DNA of 64,000 bases from Solitalea canadensis DSM 3403 (GTDB taxonomy: Bacteria; Bacteroidota; Bacteroidia; Sphingobacteriales; Sphingobacteriaceae), in assembly GCF_000242635.2 (NCBI RefSeq), contig NC_017770.1:3546669-3610668 (forward strand), read 5' to 3'. Below, piece by piece: positions 12,917 to 43,310 of this stretch; within the stretch, counting starts at the first letter, position 1; every line of letters begins with the position of its first letter. Position numbers and translations under genes: made by a program. Under the pieces are notes generated by a model. That model made no database searches, had not been told where the DNA came from, and saw nothing but the letters and a program-made list of their open reading frames with translations.

Positions 12917-12998
12917 GAGTTAATCAATTAATTTTCAATATTTTTTATCATTCAAATAAGTCCACTTTCTGTTCTTGATTTTCATTCCTGAAAAATGA

Positions 12999-13026
12999 AA
13001 GTCCCGGATATTTCTACCCGGGACTT
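12999..13026 (-). terminator. Intrinsic terminator after the PorP/SprF gene
   Basis: AAGTCCCGG (12999-13007) and CCGGGACTT (13018-13026) form a perfect 9-bp stem with a 10-nt loop. On the minus strand it is followed by TTTCATTTTT. It ends transcription from the module at 13-21 kb just before the rplC promoter. Confidence 0.8.
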
Positions 13027-13072
13027 CGATCCCAAAATGAATGAATAGATAATTATTCAATTATTATTTTCA

Positions 13073-14041
13073 TTATTTACCCATGCTAAACAATAATGAA
13101 ATATCGTGAGCTCCTGTATTTAATCCGGTCTCTCTTCCTATACTAAAGTTATAGGCATATCCAACTTTTAAAAATTGATTATTCTTGCCAGTATTTAATT
13201 TAAACCTGATCATTGGTCGAAATGATGATTGACCATTCCCGTTTTCATCTGTTGTTACATTCTTAATTTCACTCAGATAACGGTAACCAATCCCTGCATC
13301 AATTCCTTCCGTTAATGTTGCCATAACATTGAGATCATATGCATTCATTCCTTTAAATGTTTTCATTATTAATAGGCCCGATTCAAGCTTATTGACATCA
13401 TTAAGTCGAATCTCTCCCCCTCCTATTATATACATACTGATCTTCCTAAACATTGGAGGTATTTGATTTTCGAGATCTTGCTTATTGGTGTAAAAGGATA
13501 ATATATTGTCAAAGGAAACCCCAACATAGTAGTTATTATTGAAGGTGGCACTAAGTCCATAGCGCGCATTCATTTTAGAGCTATAAATGTTTTGCTTTTC
13601 TAAAGGATCATTGGGATTTACTGTTGTTAGGTCGGCCAGATTAATTTGAAATTGCTGTAAACCCAAACTTAATCCTGACGATAAACCAACTTTTTCCGAA
13701 ACCTGAAGATGATAGGCATAATTAATATATGCAGTAGTATAATGATCATTTCCAAATACCATACTCATAACATTTACTCCTATTCCTGATTTAATTTTAG
13801 ATAGGTAGAAATTTCCTGCTGCATTAATATTATATGATTTACCCGGATTCTGACTTATTTCTTTTAGCTGGAAGTTCGCACTAGCAGCGATCAATCCACT
13901 GCTTCCTGAAAAAGCTGGATTAACATAGGTTTTATCAAATAAGTACTGGCTCCCTTGCATTTCCACTTGTGCAAAAGCCGGCATAGTAAAACTTAACAGT
14001 ATTACTGTTATCCTTACTGTGCTATTATATATAGTTTTCAT
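13073..14041 (-). CDS. PorP/SprF family type IX secretion membrane protein
   Basis: The 322-residue protein has a signal peptide ending near PAFAQ (residue about 25), then the family opening EMQGSQYLFDKTYVNPAFSG and repeated amphipathic strands of an outer-membrane beta-barrel, with GIGYRYLSEIKN and FLKVGYAYNFSIG near the C-terminus. In Flavobacterium johnsoniae sprF lies downstream of sprB and is needed for export or anchoring of SprB. Here the gene follows the giant type-B-CTD protein by 60 bp on the same strand, the same arrangement. That it serves this cargo is inference from position. Confidence 0.88.
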   Translation of the reverse strand: MKTIYNSTVRITVILLSFTMPAFAQVEMQGSQYLFDKTYVNPAFSGSSGLIAASANFQLKEISQNPGKSYNINAAGNFYLSKIKSGIGVNVMSMVFGNDHYTTAYINYAYHLQVSEKVGLSSGLSLGLQQFQINLADLTTVNPNDPLEKQNIYSSKMNARYGLSATFNNNYYVGVSFDNILSFYTNKQDLENQIPPMFRKISMYIIGGGEIRLNDVNKLESGLLIMKTFKGMNAYDLNVMATLTEGIDAGIGYRYLSEIKNVTTDENGNGQSSFRPMIRFKLNTGKNNQFLKVGYAYNFSIGRETGLNTGAHDISLLFSMGK

Positions 14042-14101
14042 AATAATTTTTAAGGTTTAATAAATCAACAATCACCCATTCAAGTTTTGCTGATTTAGTT
14101 T

Positions 14102-17100
14102 TTAATAAACAATTGTTATATATCCCTTAAATACCTGTTCAACTCCATCCTTGCCTTTAACCTTAAGAATGTAGCCATATGAACCCATTGGTAAATTATC
14201 GCCAGTCCAATCATTCTGATAATTATCCTTCTTAAAAATCTGGTTATAGGCTTTATTAAAAATGATTAAGGTATTAGATGCATAAAACTCATTCACTCCA
14301 ACAATTTCAAACAGATCATTTATGCCATCTCCATTTGGAGTAAACAAAGAAGGTATCAATAGCTTAGCACTATTTGATCGGTTATCAATCACCCTTAGTG
14401 ATTGAGGTTTCAGTGAGTTATTACTAAGGTTTACATCATTATTAACAACTATATTTCCTTTACCGAGGTATGTATCACCTATCTTGTTCGCCTTCAACAC
14501 TAGAATGATCTCCTGTTCAGCCTCTGCTTCTAATTTTGCCAGTTGAATCTCCATAACATTCTCGACATCGTTAAAAGAGGTATTAGCAAATGAAGACGAT
14601 ATGTAATTAATGCTTGCGTCAAGTGTATCTTTCAAGATTGCATTAACAGCTAGATCTTTACCTACATTTTTAATCCTAATGATGTAGTTAAAGTTTTCAC
14701 CCTTATTTACTTCCGAAGATTCAACTATATTTTCCACCTTCAAATCTGCATTTCCTTCTAATACTAATATTACAGGATGGTCAATATTTCCGGTGATTTG
14801 ATCTCCTTGCTGTTTTAGAGGTTCTTCTACTTTGGCTGTGTACTCTTTCTTTTCCACTTTATCATAAACCTTAATTTCCACTGTTTTGCCATCATCTGTT
14901 TTATCACCATTCACCGGAATAAATCCAACCGATTTTCCATCCGGCAGCACAACTTGGTTTACAATATTTACCAGTTTATTTTCTACATATACATAAGTTT
15001 CATAGCGGTTGTTGGTGTTGTTTATAATCTGTCCACCTTGATTTATCACCGAGGTAACCGACATGTTATTTTCATAATTAACCGTATTTACCGATGTATT
15101 TTGATAAACTGTACTGGTAACTGTTGTATTGTTATTATTGATGATCGTTGGCGCTGCTGGATTATAAACTGGGGCCGTCTGGATATTTCCTTGATCTTCG
15201 CCTGGATTTGGAGCATATGGAATAACTGGAATAGTAAAGGTGTCGGTTCCACTGTAAATCTTGTACCCTTTGCCTGGTCGTAAATATTTCAAACTACCCG
15301 ACCATGTTTTGGTTACCGCATTATATTGAGCAAATTCCTCCTGACTAACTACCTTTAATCCGTCTGATGGGTTAAAATTTTTCAAGTATGTACCCAATTC
15401 CATATTTATAGCCATAGGATATCCTGTCCAGTTCCAACCTTTATTTAATACCACGTTGGCCGGTTGAGTCATGAAATTACCCAGCACTCGTAATGTATCA
15501 GGTTTAGCTACATAAATCATATAACTATTATATAAGTTGATTTTATCGAACGTTCCAACCCAACCTAATTTTGATGAATACTGACTGTATGTATTATTAT
15601 TGCTGAGTGTTTTAATAATATCACCTTCTGTGGGCTTCAATGAGCTTAAAATCTTTTTCAAACTCATATCCGAGTTCTCCACATTTAATGAAATCCAGGT
15701 CCAACCTTTCTTTAAAGGAATTGTTTGAATTACGCCTTCCGGATGTAGAATGATGGGGTTTGTTAAATTACCTATTGTACCATTGGCCACAAAGGAAAGT
15801 AGTTCCTTGCCTTGATACTCAACTCCTGGGTAAGCATCCCAAAAACGAATAGTTAGCTCCTCTCCTGCTGTATTCGAATAAGCAGTAATATACGCGATGT
15901 ATTTATTTGCATCGCTATCATATTCTATAGGTGCGATGCCTCTACATTCATTTCCTACGAAAACACCTATTTTGTCTCTAATGTCTTTTGAAGTAAGCGT
16001 ATCAGTTTGATTAAGACTAAACTGGGCAGTCACGGCCATATTGTATTTGAACGCGGAAGGATTCACCGTCCAGACAGGGGGAGTTTTCGAAACATTTACT
16101 TTTACATACAGGAACTGTCTTTTACCATCAATTAATGCAATAACTGTATCTGCATAAGTTCCGGTATTAAGATTTTTGTTCAACTCAAAGTCGATGTTTT
16201 CCTGACCCTGTGCCACAATTTTGCTTGATTTAATTGTTGGACGCAGCCATTCGGGGTATTTAATTAATGAAAAGTTTTGGGGTGTGCCCGATTTGTTTAT
16301 CAACTTAGCTCCAAAACTAGTTTGCTGGTTTTCTATTGCATTGATTGTAATGTTAGCGGGCGACCAATAAACAGGACTTAAATTGACTACAAAGCTCCAG
16401 CTTATGCTGTCTGCCACTTTATTTCCTATTACATCGGTTAAATTCTTAATGGTTGCAATCAGTTCAACATTTTCATAATCGTTAATTGCATTGGCGGGAA
16501 TAGTCCTGATCTCAAAGTTTTTACCGTCACTTAAAAAAGTAGCAGGAATAAGCTGACCATTATCTTTACGCTTCAGTGTGACCTTCACCGGATTTGAAAT
16601 ATCTGCATACACGATATCTTTATTAAAGGTTATTCCGATAATATCGGCTACCGTTAATATTCCATTCTTCGGACTTGGTACACCAAATGCTACGGCCGAC
16701 TTTCGATCTATTTTGCCCTTATACACTGGTGAATAATTTACATCCACACCCTGGCAAATAGCGATTGCTCTTAGCTCATAATTACCATCCGGCAATCCGC
16801 TAACATCGAATGTATAATCATAATACTTGTCTTTTAAATTAGCTTTAGGAACAGTAATAACAGTTTGCCATAATCCATTTTCATAATCAGTATTTATTTT
16901 GCGGTACTGCAAACCCACGGTGGTAAGTGGCGATGATTCTGAGGCATCATACTTACTAAAGGCAACAAATAATTGATTATTGTTTGACTGATTTACCACC
17001 CAATTATCTCCAGGCACAAAGAGATCAACATCACTGCATCTATTTTGGAAATAGGCGTTAAATTTAACTTTTGGTTTAGCTAGTGTATCAAATTCTGAAA

Positions 17101-20100
17101 TATCATCTAAGGTGTTATCACAAGTTGAGAAAATTACCAATGTTAGATTTTCATAAGTGCTTGTTAACGGACCTCTATACACCTCAACAGGAAGTTTAAA
17201 GCTTTTGCCTGTTGGAATATAATAAGTAGCTGCCTTATTGGTTACATCCTGACCACCCACTAAAACTTTTGCTCCATCCAGATTAGATAATGGATCTAAT
17301 TTAATGGCATACTCAACAGTTTCATCACTTTCGCTTCTGTTAGAAATTAGAATTTCAAATTTCGCAGGTTTATCAGAAGGAACATTTCGCTGTTCACTCA
17401 CACCGGCAATTTGCATTGCAGGTAAATGCCTGAACTGCGTATTATTTTCATGAGGACAGCTTGAAGAGCCCGAAACGGTTTTAAAAACAGGGGTTCCATA
17501 AACCTGATCCTCTGCTAATCCTACTGAGAAGAAATCACCTATATCATTATCTTCTAAATGATAACTGGTTGTGGTGCTGGTGGTAGTACTGTTTTCCTTA
17601 TTCTTGCTATGGTTAAACCTAAAAGTGACTAACCCTCCGGCATTAGTTTCATTTGCCTCACCTCCATGCATTGAAATACCTACTTTAACATATCCATTAA
17701 GGTAAACTGAAACTTCATCAAACGTTGTAGTATCAGCATCAATGCTTATCGTATTATCATAGATCGCACCAGAACTAAAAGAAATATTACCTCCAACAAC
17801 ACCCTTCACCCCATCAGGCAGTTTTCGATCCTTAGCATTTTTTCTGTTTGCTTCATTTTTTACTAAGGCGGACTTCCAGGCATCAATATTAGCTTTATAC
17901 TCCAACTGCTGTTGGTTCATTTTCTCCAACACTTCATTACTAATACTGTTGTCTCCACTTTTCACTTTCTGGTAAGCTACATCATAATCTGATTTTGAAA
18001 TACTATAAAGCGTACTCAGTTGTGCCAGTAAAGTATTTTTAATATGTTTCTCGGTGTATAAGAAAGTGGTATTGAAACCATCATTATTTACAGCTAATGA
18101 GGTATCTCTATCCATATCTTGTTTGGATTCATTGTAGTATAACTTATCCGTTAAAGCATAAGTCATATTAAGAGAGGCACCCACATATAAATCACCTTCA
18201 TTGCCAACCAATGTTTCCTCTCCTGAAGTAGAGAAATCTTCCGTAAACGTAATTGTTCTATTAGTAGTAGTGCCTGAGTTTTTGTCGGCCCCCGCTTCTA
18301 CTTCACTCTGTATCTGTATAGCTGCTCCTATTTTACCAATAATAGGTAACACCACCCCTTTACCAGTTTTTACATCAGCATAAGCTCCTCCCCCTGCTCC
18401 ACCGCCATACTGAGTAGTGCTTGTGGTTGAAATGGTTGTCCCTTTAGATATTTTTGAAAAGGATTTATCTCCCGGAGGATCATGTAATACAAAGAATGGT
18501 ATTTCAGGAGTTTTTGTAACAAAAGTTTCTCGTCGGGGTCTTTCACCTTCAACAACAGCTTTTACAATAACACTTGTTTGTCGGCCTCCAACCTTACCTA
18601 CAAATTGAATTGATTTTTCATAAGGAGCTTCTAATACAGGTTGTCCGACTTTGACAAAGTACTTTACAAACCCAGAATCCATTTTTAACTCCTGGCGATC
18701 AGTACTATCAGAAATAGCATCATAAATATATACGGTACCGGTATCAAGTGCACAATTGTATTGAACGCCATCATACTCATAAGTTTCTCTTATTTTAATG
18801 TTTACCGGGTACTTATCATTTTGAGCCACTAAAAATTTATCCTGACCAGTTGGCCTGAATTTCTTTTTCTCAGAGAAGATGTCATTACCGTTATTTAATA
18901 GAACCTCAAGGTCTTTATGATAAATAAAATCAGCTTGTCTAATTACTGCTTTTCCATCAATGGTATCTCTTTTTCCTAAATCTGCACTTTGTACATTGTA
19001 CTCACGTGTAAAATATTCAAGCTTATTGCTATTAATCCCATTGAGCTCCCTTACCTCTACTACCTGAACATTAAACTGGGTTGCAGGTAAAATTAAAGAG
19101 GTTATGCCCGGTTCCTTTTGGCCGAATGTAGTTCCTCTCGAAAAGGCTTTTGAACTAATCTTAATGGGTTTTCCATAAATCAGCTTATCTCCTGTAGGTG
19201 TTACACCAGCAACTGCGGAAGTCAACTTTACCAACGCATACTCACCAATAAAGGCATCACAACTTGCTGCTACATGTATATTTAAGGTATCTGTTGTTAA
19301 ATCTTCAAAGTCAACTCCATTAACCAAACTATAAACGCTTACTCTTTTACTGCTTACTATTTCTCCAACTGCTTTTATAGTATGATTCTTAAACTTTGCT
19401 TCAACTGTATAAACACCTCCATTTATAATTGTAGTGCTATAGCTACCATCAGGACTGGTTTTTGTTTGCGTATTTTTACCATCTACCCATATTTCTGCAT
19501 CCTTCAATGGAAGTTTAATACTTACTCCATTTGAATCTATCAAACTCGAAAAATAAACCTTTCCACTAATTGCAAAGGAAGCTGTGTCAGAGAAATTTAC
19601 CTGGCTTTGATTAAAGTTATCAATATCTAGTTTACGAATTAGGCTGTCCGGATCAAACCGAGGCTTATCGTAACCAGGCATTTTAGGTTTTACAATATAT
19701 TCAGCAGATGCTGCAAAAAAGATATTGCTAATTTCATAATAGCCATCAGCCCCTGATGTTGTTGTATAAGAATAGGTTTGAGCTGTTTCTTTATCAGACA
19801 AGTTGGTTTTAGAGGTTACTGTAATTTCTACTCCTGGTACACCACCATTAGTCTTTCCTTTAACATAACCGCTTATTTTCCCTTTGGGTAAACTTCTCCC
19901 CTTGGCAATATTGGATGTCCAGTTGTTAACATCAATTGCTGGTGTATTAGGATCTTCATCCTCAATTAAACCCAAGCGATAGGAATAATACATGCCTGGC
20001 ATAACATCCGGATCATTATAAGTTTTTGTTGTTTTAGTAAGCTCAGTTATTACTTCACCATCCCTAAAAATAGCAATGCGCTCTAATCCCTTAATACTAC

Positions 20101-20926
20101 TTAGCGTTGGCCATGTTAACTTTATTCTACCAACATCTGTTTGGGTTGCCGTTAACTGAAATGATTGGGAAGAGATTGTTGTAGAAACAGCATCTGAAAC
20201 ATCTCTAATCCAATCTCCGGGAGCATTAGGACCAACAATTGTTTGAACCGTATAAGAATAACCCATCCCTGGCAAAATCCCGGTGTCAACAAACTCAACA
20301 GATCCACCACTCGCTCTGGCAATCTCGGTTCCATTACGCTTAATGAGGTATTGGATGTTATTGTTATCGATAGACGTACCTTTATTCCAAGTCAGTTTAA
20401 CGGAATAATTTGGTGAAGTTTGAAAGGAAGCTAACAGGTTGACTGGCGCTTTGATTTTAGCGGTTGTTCCCGAAAAAGATGAATACCCCCAATGCAAATT
20501 ACAACCGGTAGAGTTACTTCCGGTTTCGTATTTGAAAACGATTGTATACGGCATACTTGGGCCTAATTGTATAGCCCCGTTTCCGGCTCCGGCAGAAGCA
20601 GAACTTAATGAACCACTATCAAAACCGGCCCATCCGGGAGACGTTCCAGACCAAGTTTTCAAAATGTGACTGTTCTCACTATCTACATTATCACACCACA
20701 CCTTACCGTCGGTATCGTAACGCGCAAAGCCCCACCAGTTGAAGTGAAAATATTGATCATCTACAGAGCTCGACATTTTACCCTGAATATTCAGGTCACC
20801 TTGAGCTAATGTTTTCTGATTTGTTGCGAAAAGCAGTAACATAAGTAAAGGAAGAAAACGAAATAGTCGCTTCCTTAATTGAAACCGTTTAAGGCAATTA
20901 CAATTTTTAAGTAAATGTGCAATCAT
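14102..20926 (-). CDS. Giant secreted multidomain protein with T9SS type B sorting domain
   Basis: The protein is 2274 residues. A basic N-terminus and hydrophobic stretch (FLPLLMLLLFATNQKTLAQ) form a signal peptide ending near residue 42. Fibronectin-III-like modules lie at about 160-345, carboxypeptidase-regulatory-like Ig folds (GKISGYVKGKTNGGVPGVEI and a second copy) at about 350-540, a bacterial Ig-like domain at about 1450-1550, an Asn/Thr-rich linker near 1905-1975, and a DUF11-like repeat (NADLKVENIVESSEVNKGEN) near 2070-2180. The last 85 residues (SLFTPNGDGINDLFEIVG to FKGYITIVY) are the gliding-motility-associated type B C-terminal domain used for type IX export. It is probably a cell-surface adhesin or matrix protein like SprB; the ligand is unknown. 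A PorP/SprF gene follows. Confidence 0.9.
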   Translation of the reverse strand: MIAHLLKNCNCLKRFQLRKRLFRFLPLLMLLLFATNQKTLAQGDLNIQGKMSSSVDDQYFHFNWWGFARYDTDGKVWCDNVDSENSHILKTWSGTSPGWAGFDSGSLSSASAGAGNGAIQLGPSMPYTIVFKYETGSNSTGCNLHWGYSSFSGTTAKIKAPVNLLASFQTSPNYSVKLTWNKGTSIDNNNIQYLIKRNGTEIARASGGSVEFVDTGILPGMGYSYTVQTIVGPNAPGDWIRDVSDAVSTTISSQSFQLTATQTDVGRIKLTWPTLSSIKGLERIAIFRDGEVITELTKTTKTYNDPDVMPGMYYSYRLGLIEDEDPNTPAIDVNNWTSNIAKGRSLPKGKISGYVKGKTNGGVPGVEITVTSKTNLSDKETAQTYSYTTTSGADGYYEISNIFFAASAEYIVKPKMPGYDKPRFDPDSLIRKLDIDNFNQSQVNFSDTASFAISGKVYFSSLIDSNGVSIKLPLKDAEIWVDGKNTQTKTSPDGSYSTTIINGGVYTVEAKFKNHTIKAVGEIVSSKRVSVYSLVNGVDFEDLTTDTLNIHVAASCDAFIGEYALVKLTSAVAGVTPTGDKLIYGKPIKISSKAFSRGTTFGQKEPGITSLILPATQFNVQVVEVRELNGINSNKLEYFTREYNVQSADLGKRDTIDGKAVIRQADFIYHKDLEVLLNNGNDIFSEKKKFRPTGQDKFLVAQNDKYPVNIKIRETYEYDGVQYNCALDTGTVYIYDAISDSTDRQELKMDSGFVKYFVKVGQPVLEAPYEKSIQFVGKVGGRQTSVIVKAVVEGERPRRETFVTKTPEIPFFVLHDPPGDKSFSKISKGTTISTTSTTQYGGGAGGGAYADVKTGKGVVLPIIGKIGAAIQIQSEVEAGADKNSGTTTNRTITFTEDFSTSGEETLVGNEGDLYVGASLNMTYALTDKLYYNESKQDMDRDTSLAVNNDGFNTTFLYTEKHIKNTLLAQLSTLYSISKSDYDVAYQKVKSGDNSISNEVLEKMNQQQLEYKANIDAWKSALVKNEANRKNAKDRKLPDGVKGVVGGNISFSSGAIYDNTISIDADTTTFDEVSVYLNGYVKVGISMHGGEANETNAGGLVTFRFNHSKNKENSTTTSTTTSYHLEDNDIGDFFSVGLAEDQVYGTPVFKTVSGSSSCPHENNTQFRHLPAMQIAGVSEQRNVPSDKPAKFEILISNRSESDETVEYAIKLDPLSNLDGAKVLVGGQDVTNKAATYYIPTGKSFKLPVEVYRGPLTSTYENLTLVIFSTCDNTLDDISEFDTLAKPKVKFNAYFQNRCSDVDLFVPGDNWVVNQSNNNQLFVAFSKYDASESSPLTTVGLQYRKINTDYENGLWQTVITVPKANLKDKYYDYTFDVSGLPDGNYELRAIAICQGVDVNYSPVYKGKIDRKSAVAFGVPSPKNGILTVADIIGITFNKDIVYADISNPVKVTLKRKDNGQLIPATFLSDGKNFEIRTIPANAINDYENVELIATIKNLTDVIGNKVADSISWSFVVNLSPVYWSPANITINAIENQQTSFGAKLINKSGTPQNFSLIKYPEWLRPTIKSSKIVAQGQENIDFELNKNLNTGTYADTVIALIDGKRQFLYVKVNVSKTPPVWTVNPSAFKYNMAVTAQFSLNQTDTLTSKDIRDKIGVFVGNECRGIAPIEYDSDANKYIAYITAYSNTAGEELTIRFWDAYPGVEYQGKELLSFVANGTIGNLTNPIILHPEGVIQTIPLKKGWTWISLNVENSDMSLKKILSSLKPTEGDIIKTLSNNNTYSQYSSKLGWVGTFDKINLYNSYMIYVAKPDTLRVLGNFMTQPANVVLNKGWNWTGYPMAINMELGTYLKNFNPSDGLKVVSQEEFAQYNAVTKTWSGSLKYLRPGKGYKIYSGTDTFTIPVIPYAPNPGEDQGNIQTAPVYNPAAPTIINNNNTTVTSTVYQNTSVNTVNYENNMSVTSVINQGGQIINNTNNRYETYVYVENKLVNIVNQVVLPDGKSVGFIPVNGDKTDDGKTVEIKVYDKVEKKEYTAKVEEPLKQQGDQITGNIDHPVILVLEGNADLKVENIVESSEVNKGENFNYIIRIKNVGKDLAVNAILKDTLDASINYISSSFANTSFNDVENVMEIQLAKLEAEAEQEIILVLKANKIGDTYLGKGNIVVNNDVNLSNNSLKPQSLRVIDNRSNSAKLLIPSLFTPNGDGINDLFEIVGVNEFYASNTLIIFNKAYNQIFKKDNYQNDWTGDNLPMGSYGYILKVKGKDGVEQVFKGYITIVY

Positions 20927-21129: not shown

Positions 21130-21903
21130 TTAACGAAAATCAAAACATTTGAAAAATTCATCTTTATAATTTCTACCTAATGGAACCTCATTTTTCCCAA
21201 TATTTAAGAAGACATCATTAAATGTGGTTAAATGATCGAGATTTACTGCATAGGATCGATGGACACGAATAAGTCCGGGCATTTCAAGTTTCTCAAGAAT
21301 AGCATTTAATGATAAACGAAGCGAATATTGCTTATCGACAGTATATATATTGGTGTAGTTATTTTCAGCTTCCAGATAGTATATGTCTTCGAGTTTAATC
21401 TTTAAAAAACGATAATTCTGTTTAATAAAAACATGTCCATTAAAATGCAAGATAGATTCTTTCCCGCTCTGCTCCTTTTCTTTGCCTTGCAGCGTAAAAA
21501 CAGGAGTTGAATCCACCTCTTTCCGAACTGCAAAATTATTGAGAGCCATCTCAATTGCTATTCTCAGGTTTGCAATTTGAAAAGGTTTTACCAAATAGGC
21601 TGATGGGAAGGTTTCCTTAGCTCGCTCAATAGTCGCTGCATCCGTAAATGCAGTTAAATAAATAAACGGAACTTCTCGCATTGATAAAATTCTCTTTATT
21701 GTTTCGATGCCGTCACAATCACCTTTAATACTCACATCCATTAATAAAAGGTCAACCGCATTATTTTTGAATATTGATAATGCTTCATCTGCATTATCGG
21801 CAACTCCGGCAATTGTAAAGCCCTCCAACAATAGTTTCTCTTCCAAATCCATCGCAAGAATGGCCTCGTCTTCCACTATCATTACATTAATATTGTCTTT
21901 CAT
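21130..21903 (-). CDS. LytTR-family response regulator
   Basis: The protein is 257 residues. The receiver domain (about 5-122) has the acidic pair Glu11/Asp12, phosphoacceptor Asp56 (DLLLMDVS), the Thr of YLTAF and the Lys of LVKPF. The LytTR DNA-binding domain (about 150-257) has KLEDIYYLEAENNYTNIYT, then RVHRSYAVNLDHL and VPLGRNYKDEFF. It is divergent from a HisKA_2 kinase at 22083 and lies upstream of the giant surface protein in the same direction, so it may regulate that gene. The pairing with the kinase is inferred from position. Confidence 0.92.
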   Translation of the reverse strand: MKDNINVMIVEDEAILAMDLEEKLLLEGFTIAGVADNADEALSIFKNNAVDLLLMDVSIKGDCDGIETIKRILSMREVPFIYLTAFTDAATIERAKETFPSAYLVKPFQIANLRIAIEMALNNFAVRKEVDSTPVFTLQGKEKEQSGKESILHFNGHVFIKQNYRFLKIKLEDIYYLEAENNYTNIYTVDKQYSLRLSLNAILEKLEMPGLIRVHRSYAVNLDHLTTFNDVFLNIGKNEVPLGRNYKDEFFKCFDFR

Positions 21904-22082
21904 AAGAATGATAAATGAGGAGAGCTTAATAGAAATAAATGATATTTAAATATTTTTACAATTGCGAAAATAAATAAAACAACAGACTTAAACGCTTAAC
22001 TCATTCGCATTATTTATTATTTTTGTTTGACTATTAACTAGTTATTACTGCTCTCCTTAAGTTATCAACCTAAATCTATCCA
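21904..22082. other. Divergent control region between response regulator and kinase
   Basis: This 179-bp A/T-rich spacer lies between two divergently transcribed regulators. On the plus strand TATTTTTG (22018-22025) fits the -7 element, about 57 bp before the kinase start, but a -33 TTTG at the expected distance is absent. I see no clear direct repeats for LytTR binding. Confidence 0.35.
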
Positions 22083-23870
22083 ATGAACCATTGCTCAGTC
22101 AGGTACCCAATATTGGCATTTTGCTTTATTTTAACAGGATTTATGATTGCCTGCAAAAAGGAAAATCCACCATTTAATGAATTCAAAAAGGTTTTATCTC
22201 CTATAGCAATTGAAGAGTTATATAAAAAAGGAAATAGAACTTCATTAAGCGATTCCATTAATTATTATTCAAAACATTTGCTAGAGGTTTCAACAGATAA
22301 TAACGATGCTTATATCAAAGGGAAAACTCTTGAAGCCAAATATTTATGGAGAACGGGGCAACATCAAAAGGCGATTACCTCAGCAATGGAAGGATTAAAA
22401 GAGGCACATCTAAATAACAATACAAAGCAAATTCCTTGGTTACATGCCATTTTAGCTAATGTTTTCAAAGAGAAAGAGAGCTATTCATTAGCAATGGAAA
22501 ATGCAAAAAAAGGTCTTGATCAGGCAATTACTTCAAAAGACACTGTAAATATTATTTACCTGATGAGGGTAAATGCTATGATCTGGAGGGGTTATGGTAT
22601 GGTGACAAATAATGAAAACTATATTAATAAATCTATCACCACACATCTTGAAGGATTAAAACTTGCAGAAAGCTCACCTAAGTATAAACTTGAACGTCCC
22701 GGATATTATAGTAATATTTCTCAGTTTTATCTTGAACATAGGAATGATTTTGAAAGTGCTATATATTATGGATTAAAAGGTCATGAAATAAGTACCAAGA
22801 ATAACGACTTTAGTAACCTGTCATACATAAGTAGTTGGTTAGGAATTGCTTATTACAAGAAAGGTGACAATAAAAGAGGTGAGCATTATTTAAATGAAGC
22901 ACTAATTGCTTCACAAAAAACCAAACGTATTTTCAGGGAGATGGAGATTTATAGGGAATTCTCAGAATATAATGCCCTTAATGGTAACTATAAAGCTTCA
23001 TTAGATTATCTGAAAAGATACAACTCCATCCATGATTCACTTGGTGTAGTTGATAATCTTAAAGCAATTAATGAGTTGGAAGTTCAATATAAATCAGAAC
23101 TGAAGGACAAACAAATTGCGCTGTTGAATCAGATCGAGAAGAATAATACTGCTAAGTTCACCTTAGCAATTGTAGTACTTTCCATTGTAGTAATATCTAT
23201 CATCATATTAAGTTTTCAATATCGCCAGATTAGAAATAACAATAAAAAAATTGTTCAACAGGCAGATAAACTTCAGTTACTACTTAAAGAACTTCATCAT
23301 CGTGTAAAAAACAACCTTCAAATCATATCAAGTCTGCTCAGCTTGCAGTCGAACCGACTGGTGGATGAGGATGTAAAAAAGGTTGTGCAAACCGGACAGC
23401 AACGTATTGAAGCAATGTCGCTTATTCACCGTAATCTCTATCAGCTCAATAATCCCGGAATGGTGAACATGAAAGAATACATTACTGATTTATGTGAGAG
23501 TTTGTCCAAAAGCTTCGGTTTTTCATTAGATGACCTTCAACTAAAAATTGAGATTGATCTGGATGAACTAGATGTTGATAAGGCCATTCCTTTAGGTTTG
23601 ATTATTAATGAATGGATTACCAATGCATTTAAATATGCTTATGAAGATGTAAAAAGGCCGGAATTAACCATAAGTTTGACGCTTGAAGAAGGAATTAAAT
23701 TATCAATTGAAGACAACGGACCTGGTTTACCAACGGAAAAATGGGAGAATCCTCAATCATCATTTGGTTTAAAACTGGTTAAAGTGTTAAGTAAACAACT
23801 AAATGGACATTTCAAACTTGATAATACTAAAGGAACATTGTTTAGTTTAAATATTCCAATGGCTAGCTAA
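22083..23870 (+). CDS. TPR-containing HisKA_2 sensor histidine kinase
   Basis: The protein is 595 residues. The N-terminus (ILAFCFILTGFMIACKKEN) ends in a lipobox-like MIAC, so Cys24 could be lipidated. TPR-like helices fill about 50-335. A single membrane segment (FTLAIVVLSIVVISIIILSF) is near 360-380. The HisKA_2 dimerisation motif LKELHHRVKNNLQIISSLLS carries His405/His406, followed by the HATPase region with INEWITNAFKYAY (N box) and EDNGPGLP (G box). It probably phosphorylates the adjacent LytTR regulator. The IS3 element begins 31 bp after its stop. Confidence 0.92.
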   Translation: MNHCSVRYPILAFCFILTGFMIACKKENPPFNEFKKVLSPIAIEELYKKGNRTSLSDSINYYSKHLLEVSTDNNDAYIKGKTLEAKYLWRTGQHQKAITSAMEGLKEAHLNNNTKQIPWLHAILANVFKEKESYSLAMENAKKGLDQAITSKDTVNIIYLMRVNAMIWRGYGMVTNNENYINKSITTHLEGLKLAESSPKYKLERPGYYSNISQFYLEHRNDFESAIYYGLKGHEISTKNNDFSNLSYISSWLGIAYYKKGDNKRGEHYLNEALIASQKTKRIFREMEIYREFSEYNALNGNYKASLDYLKRYNSIHDSLGVVDNLKAINELEVQYKSELKDKQIALLNQIEKNNTAKFTLAIVVLSIVVISIIILSFQYRQIRNNNKKIVQQADKLQLLLKELHHRVKNNLQIISSLLSLQSNRLVDEDVKKVVQTGQQRIEAMSLIHRNLYQLNNPGMVNMKEYITDLCESLSKSFGFSLDDLQLKIEIDLDELDVDKAIPLGLIINEWITNAFKYAYEDVKRPELTISLTLEEGIKLSIEDNGPGLPTEKWENPQSSFGLKLVKVLSKQLNGHFKLDNTKGTLFSLNIPMAS

Positions 23871-36926: not shown

Positions 36927-39900
36927 ATGACAAACTACGCTAAACTAAACAATGTGCTTGGCTGGCTTGCTTTTATGATTGCAGCCATCGTGTATTCGCT
37001 AACCATGGAACGAACTGTAAGTTACTGGGATTGTGGAGAATTTGTAGCTTCTGTTTATAAACTCCAGGTTTGCCATCAACCGGGCGCTCCGCTCTATTTA
37101 ATAATCAGCAAAATACTATCATTGTTATCGGGAGATTCAACTCAAGTTGCCTGGTGGATCAATTTAGGTTCCGTTCTTGCGAGTGCCGCAACAATTATGT
37201 TTTTGTTCTGGACCATTACCCACCTTGCAAAGAAACTCCTAAAAACCGATCAACAACTAGGCACAATTCAGTTAATCACCATATTTGGGGCTGGTTTTAC
37301 AGGTGCCCTTGCATACGCCTTTTCCGATACTTTCTGGTTTTCTGCAGTGGAGGCCGAGGTATATGCCCTGTCATCGCTATTCACAGCCATTACTTTCTGG
37401 GCAATCTTAAAATGGGAAAACGAGGCAGATCAACCCAGAGCAAATAGATGGTTACTATTTATTGCCTACTTAATTGGGCTATCAATTGGCGTGCATTTAC
37501 TCAACTTGCTGGCTATTCCGGCAGTTGGAATGGTTTATTATTTCAAAAAAATAAACAAAGGCTGGAAGGGAGCCTTGTTAACATTTGTTATATCCTGCCT
37601 AATATTAGTTTTCATTCAATATGGAGTTATCCCTGGTACAGTTTCACTCGCTGCAAAATTTGAGCTGCTATTCGTGAATGGAATTGCCCTTTCATTTGGA
37701 AGCGGGGTAACGTTTTTTATCATTTTACTAGCTGTTAGTTTTGCATGGATACTCCATTATTCATTCAAAAAGCAAAAGGTTTGGTTAAACACCGCTACAT
37801 TATGTTTATGCTTTATTTATATCGGCTATGCTTCATATGCATTGATCATTATCAGGGCAAAAGCTGATACAAGTTTAAATAACACATCTCCGGACAATAT
37901 ATTCTCTTTTTTAGACTACCTGAACCGTGAGCAGTTTGGGGCCGGAGACGAGTTGGTTGTTGGGCCGACTTTTACTAGCAAAATTTATTATACTAAGTCT
38001 GACCAGAATATATACGTTAAAGGGGATAGCAAGTATGAAGTTGTGGGTAAAAAGTATGAGAAAAAAATCCCGGACGGACAGAAAATGCTTTTTCCAAGAA
38101 TTGCCAACCAGAAGTATGAGAGTTTTTATCGTTCATGGCTAAATAAACCTTCAGGTAATCCCAACTTTGGAGATAACATCAACTACTTCACCACTTATCA
38201 GCTAGGTCATTTATACTGGCGCTATTTTATGTGGAATTTTGCAGGTCGACAAAATAACATTCAAGGTGAGGGCGAACCCAACAAAGGAAACTGGGTAAGT
38301 GGGGTTAAGCCAATTGACGCCATCGCATTGGGAGACCAAAGTCAACTCCCTCCTAGCATTGCTAATAATGAAGCCTATAACAGGTTATATTTTCTTCCTT
38401 TGCTATTAGGTATTGCAGGGCTTATCTATCAACTTAAAAAGAATAATAAAGACTTTATAGCCACTGCATTGCTATTTCTTTTTACAGGTATTGCAATAAT
38501 TATTTACCTCAATCAAACCCCGCAGCAGGTACGTGATCGGGATTATGCTTATGCTGCTTCATTTTACGCTTTTGCCATTTGGATTGGATTAGGCGTTTTA
38601 TTTATAAAAGATTTCTTGAGTAAGCGATGGAACAATGTAGCGATAGCTAGTCTTAGTTCGGCGATCTGCATGGTAGCGGTTCCGATTTTAATGTTGAACC
38701 AGGAATGGGATGACCATGATCGTTCTCAGCGTACACTTGTTCGCGATATTGCCAAAAACACACTCGACAGTTGTGCTCCCAATGCAATTCTTTTCGTTGC
38801 CGGAGATAATGAAACTTTTCCATTGTGGTATATGCAGGAAGTTGAAAACTATCGTCCGGATATCCGTATTGTCAATCTGCAACTAATTGGGATGGGATGG
38901 TATGGCAAACAACTATTAAAACCGGTAAATAAAGCTGCCGAAGTAAAGTTGTCATACACCTACAAGCAATTTGCCAACAGTAACAGAGACTATACCCCTT
39001 TATTTGATCAGCATATTAAAGATCCGGTTGAACTGCAGGAGTTATTAGATTTTATAGGAAGTGATGATGAACGAGCTAAAGCACAATTAGACTCAGGAGA
39101 CTTTATCAATTACTTGCCAACAAAACAATTGAAGTTAACAGTTAATAAGCAAAAGATGGTTAACAATGGAACCGTACCTAAGGCCGATGAAAATAAAGTT
39201 GTTAATGAAATGGTTTGGCAATTACCGCAGGATATGTTACTAAAAAATCAATTGTTAACGCTAAACATTATCGCTAATAATATAGAGAATCGGCCGATTT
39301 ACTTTCACCAGTTCCTGGGAGAAGAAGATTTTTGCGGACTCGATAATTACTTCCGCAAAGATGGAATCGTTTATCGTTTGGTACCAATTAAGGATGATGG
39401 AATAAACCATGGTATTGCCGAGAAAGGCAGCGTAAATACTTCGATCTTATATAGCAACCTGATGAATAAATATACCTGGGGTACTATAAACAATGGAAAA
39501 ACATACATTGATCCTACTTTTGCGCGCAATGTAAGTTGGTATAGAGATTCCTATAATGTATTGGCAAAGGCACTATTAAACGAAGGCAAAGTAAAAGAAT
39601 GTGAAAAGATACTTGATCGGATGGAACATGATCTACCCGTGAGCAATACTGGAATAGGTTTATCCCAATTTACCCGTCTTGATACCTCTACCTTATACTA
39701 CAACTGCAAAGCTTTAAAAAAAGCAAATGCTATAGTACAGGACACCAGCGAGTATATTACTAAAGAATTAAATTACCTGTATGCTATCCGTGGCAAAGAC
39801 AGCAAGTTTGTTGCTAATGAAGTGCAGACTGGATTATATATTTTGCAGTTATTAGCTGAAGAAAGCCGCAAACACGGACAAACTGCACTTAGTAACAAGA

Positions 39901-39950
39901 TTGAAACAAGACTGGGTGAATTTGTTCAAAAGTTTGGCCTTAATGGATAA
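36927..39950 (+). CDS. DUF2723 family polytopic membrane protein (GT-C-like), paralogue 1
   Basis: The protein is 1007 residues. The N-terminal half has about ten or more membrane segments and the family opening SYWDCGEFVASVYKLQVCHQ, where the Asp/Glu pair in the first outer loop resembles that of GT-C glycosyltransferases such as protein O-mannosyltransferases. The motif TPQQVRDRDYAYAASFYAFA is conserved with the paralogue. The second half is a large soluble domain ending in TPR-like helices. The family is usually described as probable protein O-mannosyltransferases or TMEM260-like; acceptor and sugar are unknown. A terminator separates it from the paralogue. Confidence 0.85.
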   Translation: MTNYAKLNNVLGWLAFMIAAIVYSLTMERTVSYWDCGEFVASVYKLQVCHQPGAPLYLIISKILSLLSGDSTQVAWWINLGSVLASAATIMFLFWTITHLAKKLLKTDQQLGTIQLITIFGAGFTGALAYAFSDTFWFSAVEAEVYALSSLFTAITFWAILKWENEADQPRANRWLLFIAYLIGLSIGVHLLNLLAIPAVGMVYYFKKINKGWKGALLTFVISCLILVFIQYGVIPGTVSLAAKFELLFVNGIALSFGSGVTFFIILLAVSFAWILHYSFKKQKVWLNTATLCLCFIYIGYASYALIIIRAKADTSLNNTSPDNIFSFLDYLNREQFGAGDELVVGPTFTSKIYYTKSDQNIYVKGDSKYEVVGKKYEKKIPDGQKMLFPRIANQKYESFYRSWLNKPSGNPNFGDNINYFTTYQLGHLYWRYFMWNFAGRQNNIQGEGEPNKGNWVSGVKPIDAIALGDQSQLPPSIANNEAYNRLYFLPLLLGIAGLIYQLKKNNKDFIATALLFLFTGIAIIIYLNQTPQQVRDRDYAYAASFYAFAIWIGLGVLFIKDFLSKRWNNVAIASLSSAICMVAVPILMLNQEWDDHDRSQRTLVRDIAKNTLDSCAPNAILFVAGDNETFPLWYMQEVENYRPDIRIVNLQLIGMGWYGKQLLKPVNKAAEVKLSYTYKQFANSNRDYTPLFDQHIKDPVELQELLDFIGSDDERAKAQLDSGDFINYLPTKQLKLTVNKQKMVNNGTVPKADENKVVNEMVWQLPQDMLLKNQLLTLNIIANNIENRPIYFHQFLGEEDFCGLDNYFRKDGIVYRLVPIKDDGINHGIAEKGSVNTSILYSNLMNKYTWGTINNGKTYIDPTFARNVSWYRDSYNVLAKALLNEGKVKECEKILDRMEHDLPVSNTGIGLSQFTRLDTSTLYYNCKALKKANAIVQDTSEYITKELNYLYAIRGKDSKFVANEVQTGLYILQLLAEESRKHGQTALSNKIETRLGEFVQKFGLNG

Positions 39951-40031
39951 AACATAATCACAAGCGTTTTTTATCCTGTTGATTACTGCATTTAGTAATT
40001 TGAAAAAACTGAATAATATTCAGGAAACAAC

Positions 40032-40064
40032 AAATGAGTCGTAAAAATCACTTGCGACTCATTT
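40032..40064 (+). terminator. Terminator between the two DUF2723 genes
   Basis: AAATGAGTCG (40032-40041) and CGACTCATTT (40055-40064) form a 10-bp stem with a 13-nt loop, followed by ATTTTT. It suggests that the two paralogues are transcribed separately. Confidence 0.75.
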
Positions 40065-40148
40065 ATTTTTCCTTACACCACAAAATAATTTCTAAATTCG
40101 GCGTTTTGAAATAGAGTAAAAATAAAAACCTTAGGTTGAACATAAATT

Positions 40149-43100
40149 ATGACAAATTACACACGGTTAAATAACCTGTTTGGATGGATTACCTTCCTCA
40201 TTGCAACTACCGTTTACACATTAACCCTTGAACCTACCGGAAGCTTTTGGGATTGCGGAGAGTTTATTTCATCAGCATTTAAATTACAAGTTTGCCATCA
40301 ACCGGGAGCTCCTTTGTTCCTGATGATCTCTAAAGTGCTTTCTTTATTTGCCGGTGACGTTACTCAGGTTGCCTGGTGGACCAACTTTGGTTCTGCTGTA
40401 TCGAGTGGTGCAACTATTATGTTCTTGTTCTGGAGCATTACACACCTGGCTAAGAAACTAATTTTTACTGAAGGCTCAACAATCAATGGCGGACAAACAC
40501 TTGCTATTATTGGAGCTGGTTTGGTTGGCTCATTAGCTTACACTTTTTCAGATACATTTTGGTTTTCGGCAGTTGAGTCGGAGGTGTATGCCATGTCTTC
40601 ATTATGTACAGCAATTGTTTTCTGGGCTATTTTAAAGTGGGAAAATGAAGCTAACGATAAACATGCTGATCGTTGGTTGATATTTATCGCTTACATGATG
40701 GGATTATCAATAGGTGTTCACTTGCTGAACTTATTGGCCATCCCTGCTCTTGCATTTGTTTATTATTTCAAAAAACACGAAGCAACAACGAAAGGTGTAC
40801 TATTCACATTCATTATTTCTTGTGTCATTTTAGTTTTTGTACAATACGGACTTATACCGGGTACTATTTCATTTGCTGCTAAGTTCGACTTATTCTTTGT
40901 TAACAGCTTGGGAATGAACTTTGGTACCGGAGTTGTTGTGTTTGGAATTTTGTTTGTTTTACTATTAGTAAGCCTTCTTCTTTATAGCATTTCAAAAAGC
41001 AACATTCAACTTTATATTGCAGCTATCAGCTTAGGCCTTATTTTATTTTTGGGATGGGGAATTATTGCTGGCTTTTTATATTTAATCGCAGCTGCCGTTA
41101 CACTATTCTATTGGAAACCAGCTGTTAACCAATACATTTTAAACACCGCTGTACTTTGTACAATGTTTATTATGATTGGTTATGCTTCTTTTGCAATGAT
41201 CGTTATCCGTGCAAAAGCAAATCCTAACTTAAACAATAATGATCCTTCAAATGCCTATAGCTTCTTGAGTTATTTAAATCGTGAGCAATATGGCGATCGC
41301 CCGTTAGGTTTCGGTCCTTATTACTCTGCCGAAATGACTGGTCAGGAAAAAGGTGATATGATCTACCGTAAAGGCGATCATAAATATGAAGAAGTTGGTC
41401 AAAAACCAATTCCTGTTTATGATAAAAACAAGACTATTCCTTTCCCTCGTATTTATAGTGATGATGCAAATCACGTTCAGTTTTATAAAAGCTGGTTAGG
41501 AATTAAAGGGGAACCAACTTACTTTGACAACATAAGCTTCTTTGTAAGTTACCAGGTTAACTATATGTACTTCCGTTACTTTATGTGGAACTTCGCCGGG
41601 CGTCAGAATGATGTTCAAGGAGCAGGAAGTGTGCACGAAGGGAACTGGATCAGTGGAATAAAACCAATAGATGCTGTTCGCTTAGGCAACCAGAATCAAT
41701 TGCCTAAGAGTATTACGGAAAACAAAGCTTACAATAGATTATACTTCTTACCATTGATTTTAGGATTAGTTGGTTTATTCTTCCAGTATAAACGTAACCT
41801 AAAAGATTTCTCAGTAGTATTTCTACTATTCTTTATGACAGGGTTAGCTATTGTACTTTATCTAAATCAAACTCCTTTACAGCCACGTGAGCGTGATTAT
41901 GCTTACGCAGGATCTTTTTATGCTTTCACCATCTGGATTGGACTTGGTGTATTAGCAATTTATGAGTTCTTAGCTAAACGAATTAACTTAATGGCTTCTG
42001 CCGGAATCGCTACGGTGATTTGCCTGGTTGCAGTTCCGTATGTAATGGCAAAAGAAGAATGGGATGATCATGATCGTTCTAATCGCTACACTTCACGTGA
42101 TCTTGCGGCTAATTACCTGAACAGCTGTGCTCCAAATGCCATTATCTTCACTTACGGTGATAACGACACCTATCCTCTTTGGTATTGCCAGGAAGTTGAG
42201 AATATCCGTCCGGATATCCGTATTGTAAACTTAAGTTTATTAGGTACAGATTGGTATGGTCGTCAGATGAAAGGTAAAATGAATGAATCTGCTCCAATAA
42301 AGATTTCATTAGATAATCATCAGTTTGCAGCAGGTATTCGTGATTATACACCTTTGTTTGAACAAAACATACAAGGTAATGCCGAATTAAAAGAGGTAAT
42401 GCAGTTTGTGGGAAGTGATAGTCAGGATGCAAAAGCGCAGACCCAAAGCGGCGAGTATATCAATTACTTACCAACTAAAAACTTTAAAATTACAGTTGAT
42501 AAAGATGCTGTGATCAAAAACAAAGTGGTTGATCCGTCTCAGTATAACAAAATTCTACCTGAGATTGACTGGACCTACCCTTCAAATGGTTTATACAAAA
42601 ATGACCTATTAGCATTAGACATTATTGCTAATAACATATGGGAACGCCCTATTTACTTTGCTATTACTGTTCCAGACCGTAACTTCTATGGGTTACAGAA
42701 ATTCTTCCAAAATGAAGGCTTTGCTTATCGTTTAGTTCCAATGAAGAGCGATTCAACAGAAGCTGTTTTAGGTCGTGAAGGAAGCGTTAACAGCAACATT
42801 CTTTATAATAACATTCACAATAAATTTAAGTGGGGTAATTATAACAGCGGTAAAATTTACGTTGATCCGGAAAGCTCACGCATGACCACAACTTGTAAGA
42901 GCACCTTCACTATTTTAGCTCAAGCCTGTTTAAATGAAGGCAAAATTGATTCTTGTGTGAAGACATTGGATAAAATGAATGAATCTATTCCATTCATCAA
43001 TAATCAAATTGGCTATAATCTAGTACCAGATTTAATGGCAGCAGATCTTTACTATAAATCAAAAGTCCCTGCCAAAGCCAACAAACAGATTGAACTGGTA

Positions 43101-43310
43101 AATAACTTTATCACTAATCAGTTGGATTACTATCATTCATTAGGAATGCCTCGAATGGGTCGTTTTGGTGAAGAGATCAATTTCGGACTCAGTTTAATCC
43201 ATGAACTTGCTGATATGGCTTCGAAAAATAACCAGCCAGCATTAGCTCAGAAATTACAAAATGAATTAAAAACACTAGAAGGTAAATTTAGCGCAGTGCT
43301 AGAAGAATAA
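40149..43310 (+). CDS. DUF2723 family polytopic membrane protein (GT-C-like), paralogue 2
   Basis: The 1053-residue protein is similar to the gene before it over its full length: GSFWDCGEFISSAFKLQVCH near the N-terminus, TPLQPRERDYAYAGSFYAFT in the middle, and EEWDDHDRSNRYTSRDLAAN in the soluble part. It is longer mainly by an added pair of membrane segments (SLGLILFLGWGIIAGFLYLI, about residues 300-320). It probably acts in the envelope as a glycosyltransferase. It may have a different acceptor from paralogue 1; this is inference. Confidence 0.85.
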   Translation: MTNYTRLNNLFGWITFLIATTVYTLTLEPTGSFWDCGEFISSAFKLQVCHQPGAPLFLMISKVLSLFAGDVTQVAWWTNFGSAVSSGATIMFLFWSITHLAKKLIFTEGSTINGGQTLAIIGAGLVGSLAYTFSDTFWFSAVESEVYAMSSLCTAIVFWAILKWENEANDKHADRWLIFIAYMMGLSIGVHLLNLLAIPALAFVYYFKKHEATTKGVLFTFIISCVILVFVQYGLIPGTISFAAKFDLFFVNSLGMNFGTGVVVFGILFVLLLVSLLLYSISKSNIQLYIAAISLGLILFLGWGIIAGFLYLIAAAVTLFYWKPAVNQYILNTAVLCTMFIMIGYASFAMIVIRAKANPNLNNNDPSNAYSFLSYLNREQYGDRPLGFGPYYSAEMTGQEKGDMIYRKGDHKYEEVGQKPIPVYDKNKTIPFPRIYSDDANHVQFYKSWLGIKGEPTYFDNISFFVSYQVNYMYFRYFMWNFAGRQNDVQGAGSVHEGNWISGIKPIDAVRLGNQNQLPKSITENKAYNRLYFLPLILGLVGLFFQYKRNLKDFSVVFLLFFMTGLAIVLYLNQTPLQPRERDYAYAGSFYAFTIWIGLGVLAIYEFLAKRINLMASAGIATVICLVAVPYVMAKEEWDDHDRSNRYTSRDLAANYLNSCAPNAIIFTYGDNDTYPLWYCQEVENIRPDIRIVNLSLLGTDWYGRQMKGKMNESAPIKISLDNHQFAAGIRDYTPLFEQNIQGNAELKEVMQFVGSDSQDAKAQTQSGEYINYLPTKNFKITVDKDAVIKNKVVDPSQYNKILPEIDWTYPSNGLYKNDLLALDIIANNIWERPIYFAITVPDRNFYGLQKFFQNEGFAYRLVPMKSDSTEAVLGREGSVNSNILYNNIHNKFKWGNYNSGKIYVDPESSRMTTTCKSTFTILAQACLNEGKIDSCVKTLDKMNESIPFINNQIGYNLVPDLMAADLYYKSKVPAKANKQIELVNNFITNQLDYYHSLGMPRMGRFGEEINFGLSLIHELADMASKNNQPALAQKLQNELKTLEGKFSAVLEE

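Follow-up and report, generated by a model that had tools for sequence, protein, structure and literature searches.

Type B substrates of the T9SS with a PorP-like carrier have precedents (PMC9143113, PMC12618676), the closest being SprB/SprF of Flavobacterium johnsoniae, Fjoh_3952/3951/3950, and PG1035/PorP/PorE of P. gingivalis. In F. johnsoniae, a neighbouring sprF-like gene is found at 9 of 12 type B genes, and the cognate carrier has been shown to be necessary in the pairs tested (PMC12618676). Published carriers are also able to cross-talk, so an adjoining PorP need not be the sole carrier (PMC12618676). In SprF, a Cys-X-Cys motif in the C-tail forms a disulfide with GldK that is needed for gliding and dispensable for export (PMC12635249).

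We analyzed a window of 64,000 nucleotides from the complete, 5.2-Mb genome of Solitalea canadensis DSM 3403, in which a gene for a 2274 aa secreted protein (hereafter the giant) is followed 60 bp downstream by a gene for a 322 aa PorP/SprF-family protein (the carrier). As at F. johnsoniae SprB/SprF, a giant with a type B C-terminal domain (CTD) is directly followed by a PorP/SprF-family gene; unlike SprB/SprF, the carrier is without the CXC C-tail, the body of the giant has other domains, and DUF11 lies ahead of the CTD. As in PG1035/PorP/PorE and Fjoh_3952/3951/3950, a type B substrate stands beside a PorP-like barrel, which here would hold it; in contrast to both of those systems, no PorE-like gene was recognized in the locus by ORF inspection, and the giant belongs to a different, unnamed family. 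The locus also resembles giants that carry a type A signal, such as Flammeovirga kamogawensis WP_144077269.1 (annotated as having a LamG-like jellyroll fold), whose core is homologous and whose two WxVNP domains are arranged alike; however, these giants have a TIGR04183 signal, presumably take the PorV route, and are not followed by a PorP gene. The features of the locus, in window positions, are as follows.

20801..20926, minus strand: signal-peptide-like N-terminus of the giant, residues 1-42 (read from the sequence by eye, without a predictor)
14102..20926, minus strand: giant secreted protein, 2274 aa (ORF, Pfam, NCBIfam)
19892..20446, minus strand: two Fn3-like domains, residues ~161-345 (Pfam fn3 at the aligned place in relatives L033 and L036)
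19664..19876, minus strand: CarboxypepD_reg, residues 351-421 (PF13620, E 1.2e-10)
19388..19510, minus strand: second carboxypeptidase-regulatory-like domain, residues 473-513 (PF13715, weak, E 0.014)
17447..18766, minus strand: HDPPGD core, unnamed and family-conserved, residues 721-1160 (profile searches and family conservation)
15767..16114, minus strand: WxVNP copy 1, residues ~1605-1720 (custom HMM, match 1605-1774, E 2e-51)
15257..15745, minus strand: GW(N/T)W double repeat, residues ~1728-1890 (conservation in the family alignment)
14756..15130, minus strand: degenerate WxVNP copy 2 with an Asn/Thr-rich stretch, residues ~1933-2057 (custom HMM, match 1933-2086, E 1e-26)
14414..14746, minus strand: DUF11, residues 2061-2171 (PF01345, E 1.5e-10)
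14111..14356, minus strand: type B T9SS sorting domain CHU_C, residues 2191-2272 (PF13585 and TIGR04131)
13073..14041, minus strand: carrier of the PorP/SprF family, 322 aa, predicted to form a 14-strand barrel with no C-tail (Pfam, NCBIfam, AF2)
12998..13027, minus strand: terminator-like hairpin 3' of the carrier gene (13 pairs, 6 of them G-C, with a T-run; consensus match)
21130..21903, minus strand: LytTR response regulator linked to the body family (PF00072, PF04397; linkage across loci)
22083..23870, plus strand: divergent TPR-HisKA_2 histidine kinase (PF07568, PF02518; linkage across loci)

A sequence-only reading had delimited the two ORFs and their 60 bp spacing, and we found both ORFs on the minus strand exactly where it placed them. 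The hairpin and T-run lie ~45 bp past the carrier stop, ahead of a gene that we take to encode ribosomal protein L3. Since this hairpin lies between the carrier and the putative L3 gene, the giant and carrier genes probably form one short transcription unit; promoter-like sites at the locus were no more numerous than in shuffled sequence. Elsewhere in the window (36927-43310), there are two tandem large TMEM260-like (PF11028) proteins, of a family named for protein O-mannosyltransferase.

The C-terminus of the giant is recognized by PF13585 (E 1.3e-18; 67.3 bits against a cut-off of 27) and by TIGR04131, whose cut-off of 35 bits it passes with 37.2 (41.8 with the last 130 aa alone), which confirms the type B T9SS CTD of the earlier proposal. 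Together, DUF11 and CHU_C make a unit of 214 residues, a length that agrees with published type B signals, which span 150-235 residues (PMC12618676). The CarboxypepD-like and DUF11 domains of the earlier reading were recovered by our Pfam search; the Fn3 domains were not called in the window protein itself (E up to 1) and are called in relatives L033 (weakly, E 0.0038) and L036 (clearly, 3.1e-9). The stretch that had been described as an Asn/Thr linker overlaps the degenerate WxVNP copy 2 (residues 1933-2086) and is hence only partly linker. Leaving aside the last 214 residues, we found no entry in Pfam, NCBIfam or PDB that covers the core and C-terminal half of the giant; neither the giant, the carrier nor the core profile gave a credible match when searched against PDB sequences, and structure prediction of the HDPPGD core from its single sequence gave a mean pLDDT of 33 and was unusable. 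From its size, domains and location, we infer that the giant is an adhesin.

The carrier matches PF11751 (E 5.6e-37) and TIGR03519 (142 bits, cut-off 90.55), so the assignment of the neighbouring gene to the PorP/SprF family holds. Its AF2 model (mean pLDDT 77) has 14 strands, the last of which ends at residue 320 of 322, and shows no visible periplasmic C-tail. When this model was searched with Foldseek, the top matches were FadL, and chain 8gl6_F of the T9SS-RemA-CTD complex, which we take to be PorV, was found at rank 31; the carrier is thus predicted to be a FadL/PorV-like 14-strand barrel. The carrier contains zero cysteines and no Cys-X-Cys C-tail motif, and the motif is also absent from the other ten PorPs of the genome. 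Several PorP paralogues (among L132, L133 and L135-L138) end in a conserved PRYF tail, and L135 has a Lys/Glu-rich tail of ~280 residues; these are possibly periplasmic docking tails. Unlike the PRYF-tailed paralogues, the window carrier's group of PorPs ends with the barrel.

If the pair were a true SprB/SprF counterpart, the giant would be a gliding adhesin, and a GldK-bonded carrier would move it along the cell. The gene order and the protein families are the same, and the genome encodes a GldK (607 bits, above cut-off) with two internal cysteines at a spacing of 56 residues, which is near the 58 that separate Cys285 from Cys343 in the F. johnsoniae protein. However, the carrier lacks both the C-tail and any cysteine, and no PorP of the genome has CXC; the best GldJ match falls below cut-off (369 bits against 458), and family searches show no SprB feature in the body. 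We regard this counterpart as very unlikely, and with no cysteine the carrier was rejected as SprF in the strict sense. The earlier label of an SprB/SprF-like pair survives for the general type B/PorP scheme of export and holding, and not for the CXC C-tail or the body, whose domain set, as that reading had noted, is not that of SprB and which belongs to a separate unnamed family.

It is possible, if rather doubtful, that a PorE-like protein from another locus keeps the giant static at the cell wall, the arrangement put forward for PG1035 and Fjoh_3952. Static PorE-PorP-type B complexes are published (PMC9143113, PMC12618676), and the large size of the giant suits a cell-surface adhesin; on the other hand, inspection of the ORFs in the loci read recognized no PorE-like gene adjoining the pair, and the carrier is without a periplasmic tail.

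A profile of residues 721-1520 detected the body in 12 of the 201 genomes from the same family and in 30 of the 395 from the same class. The HDPPGD core, the WxVNP domain (two copies) and the GW(N/T)W repeats are conserved among the members. Judged by sequence, the body is a family of its own, unnamed in both Pfam and NCBIfam, that is scattered in Bacteroidota and present as multiple copies in some genomes. Our HMMs for PorP, the CTDs, the core and WxVNP were custom and built from few sequences each, and the CTD calls were checked with NCBIfam. One genome (G037) has at least 7 body copies, most of them in one region; several giant genes of ~2160 aa each lie at ~15-98 kb of its contig C61 (L037-L040, L150), an unusual expansion. 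Two body relatives were found in plasmid records, L041 (Flammeovirga kamogawensis) and L042 (Aureibacter tunicatorum), both on large plasmids. Viral contigs searched for the HDPPGD core gave none, and a scan of genome contigs with the entire giant as query gave C-terminal relatives only.

For 53 body-family members, we fetched the surroundings and determined the C-terminal signal with NCBIfam: 43 are type A (TIGR04183), 6 are type B (TIGR04131) and 4 are neither. A PorP gene comes directly after each of the six type B members (gaps 0-60 bp) and after none of the 47 others (Fisher p 4.4e-8); the six share one origin, and the 6/6 count is one evolutionary event rather than independent tests. Within the genome of the window, which encodes SprA (TIGR04189, 2540 bits against a cut-off of 200), 11 genes score above the PorP cut-off and 18 domains are of type B; eight of these PorP genes come immediately after a type B gene, 2 come immediately before one and 1 stands alone. 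Because PorP genes adjoin type B genes both across the genome and in the body family, the adjacency of giant and PorP is more than chance. Taken alone, the pair is ordinary, since such pairing is already known (PMC12618676).

The body tree, built on residues 1161-1895, unites the six type B giants in one clade (100/100), with type A giants as the sister group and further out. Their carriers likewise form one clade in the PorP tree (100/100), and the branching order in both trees is (L035,(L034,((window,L033),(L112,L113)))), although such matching trees could also mirror the species tree. The CTDs of the six giants also form one clade (support 99). A tree from the core alone places L035 outside the type B clade, with weak support. 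The architecture, the kept adjacency and the matching trees give good support to the cargo and partner pairing that had been proposed for the two genes. They also bear on whether another PorP of the genome, and not the neighbour, is the main carrier of the giant: ten further PorPs are present, and F. johnsoniae provides examples of cross-talk and of an orphan carrier that is shared (PMC12618676), but the adjacency is retained in six genomes and giants and PorPs share their branching order, which makes another main carrier very improbable.

WxVNP copy 2 lies upstream of both signal types. Because it precedes type A and type B signals alike, the exchange point would lie just after ~residue 2057. 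Type A signals occur in many families including this one, and type B was found only in this family in the sample; by parsimony, and with the root of the body tree not inferred, we infer that type A is the ancestral state. DUF11-CHU_C together with PorP most likely replaced a type A signal once.

As for where the new end came from, 12 of the 47 members without a type B signal are followed by a gene for a type B protein, often with porP after it where this is visible. In those examined, these type B neighbours mostly have an N-terminal WxVNP domain and cadherin repeats; the W-x-V-N-P domain, which is absent from Pfam results, is common to the giants and to the N-termini of smaller secreted type B neighbours. 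A run of type A giant, type B protein (WxVNP, cadherin repeats) and porP is kept at L094, L101-L107 and L109, and at L094, L102, L103, L107 and L109 it ends with a small (158-230 aa), probably secreted protein; the products of the run possibly form one surface complex. Such neighbours suggested that the giant had gained its type B end by fusion with the downstream cadherin-type B gene. In the trees, however, the PorPs and CTDs of the cadherin-type B genes fall in clades separate from those of the giants, and we disfavour this fusion as highly improbable. Instead, the PorPs of the giants cluster (99/98) with other PorPs encoded in the window genome, and in several partners of the latter DUF11 precedes CHU_C. 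Given this clustering with the genome's own PorPs, sequence comparison makes a resident DUF11-type type B/PorP pair a likelier source of the cassette than the fusion.

Taken together, these data suggest, and we think it quite probable, that the locus is a two-gene unit, in which a type B T9SS substrate is paired with a PorP-like carrier dedicated to it, and that it arose from one exchange of a type A for a type B module. The giant would be exported by Sec and then pass through SprA; the adjacent PorP-like 14-strand barrel would recognize the DUF11-CHU_C end, draw the giant from the translocon and keep it bound at the cell surface. By analogy with published F. johnsoniae and P. gingivalis work, the carrier would thus serve in both export and anchoring. 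The ancestor would have had a type A signal and used the PorV route, and its whole C-terminal sorting module would have been exchanged once, together with the porP gene, for one taken from the DUF11-type pairs common in the lineage. More tentatively, a surface-protein body may have been re-anchored by this cassette from the PorV to the type B route, with a tail-less carrier that would be tied neither to the gliding track nor to PorE and would represent a third mode of holding.

LytTR and HisKA_2 genes are found near giant-family members at window positions 21130-23870 and at L034, L036, L105, L107, L115, L124, L128 and L150. Clear LytTR orthologues lie beside the giant in three genomes (G004, G009 and G037; E 3e-51 to 8e-95, where the best paralogue from the genome of the window reaches 4e-17), and further orthologues were found at L105, L107, L124, L128 and L150, with a HisKA_2-type kinase alongside each. 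The linkage is not universal, as G003 (same genus) has a giant without the regulator. Since the linkage holds for type A and type B members, the regulator tracks the body while PorP tracks the signal. From its position, the HisKA_2/LytTR pair may control expression of the giant.

Swaps of type A and type B signals in the laboratory alter the destination of T9SS proteins (PMC12618676), and in a search limited to open papers we found no natural switch between the two. The apparent natural swap described here, in which the signal would have come with its carrier, lets evolution test the rule by which the two act as one unit. The tail-less carriers also make it possible to ask whether a large protein can be retained by a PorP barrel that lacks any periplasmic link.
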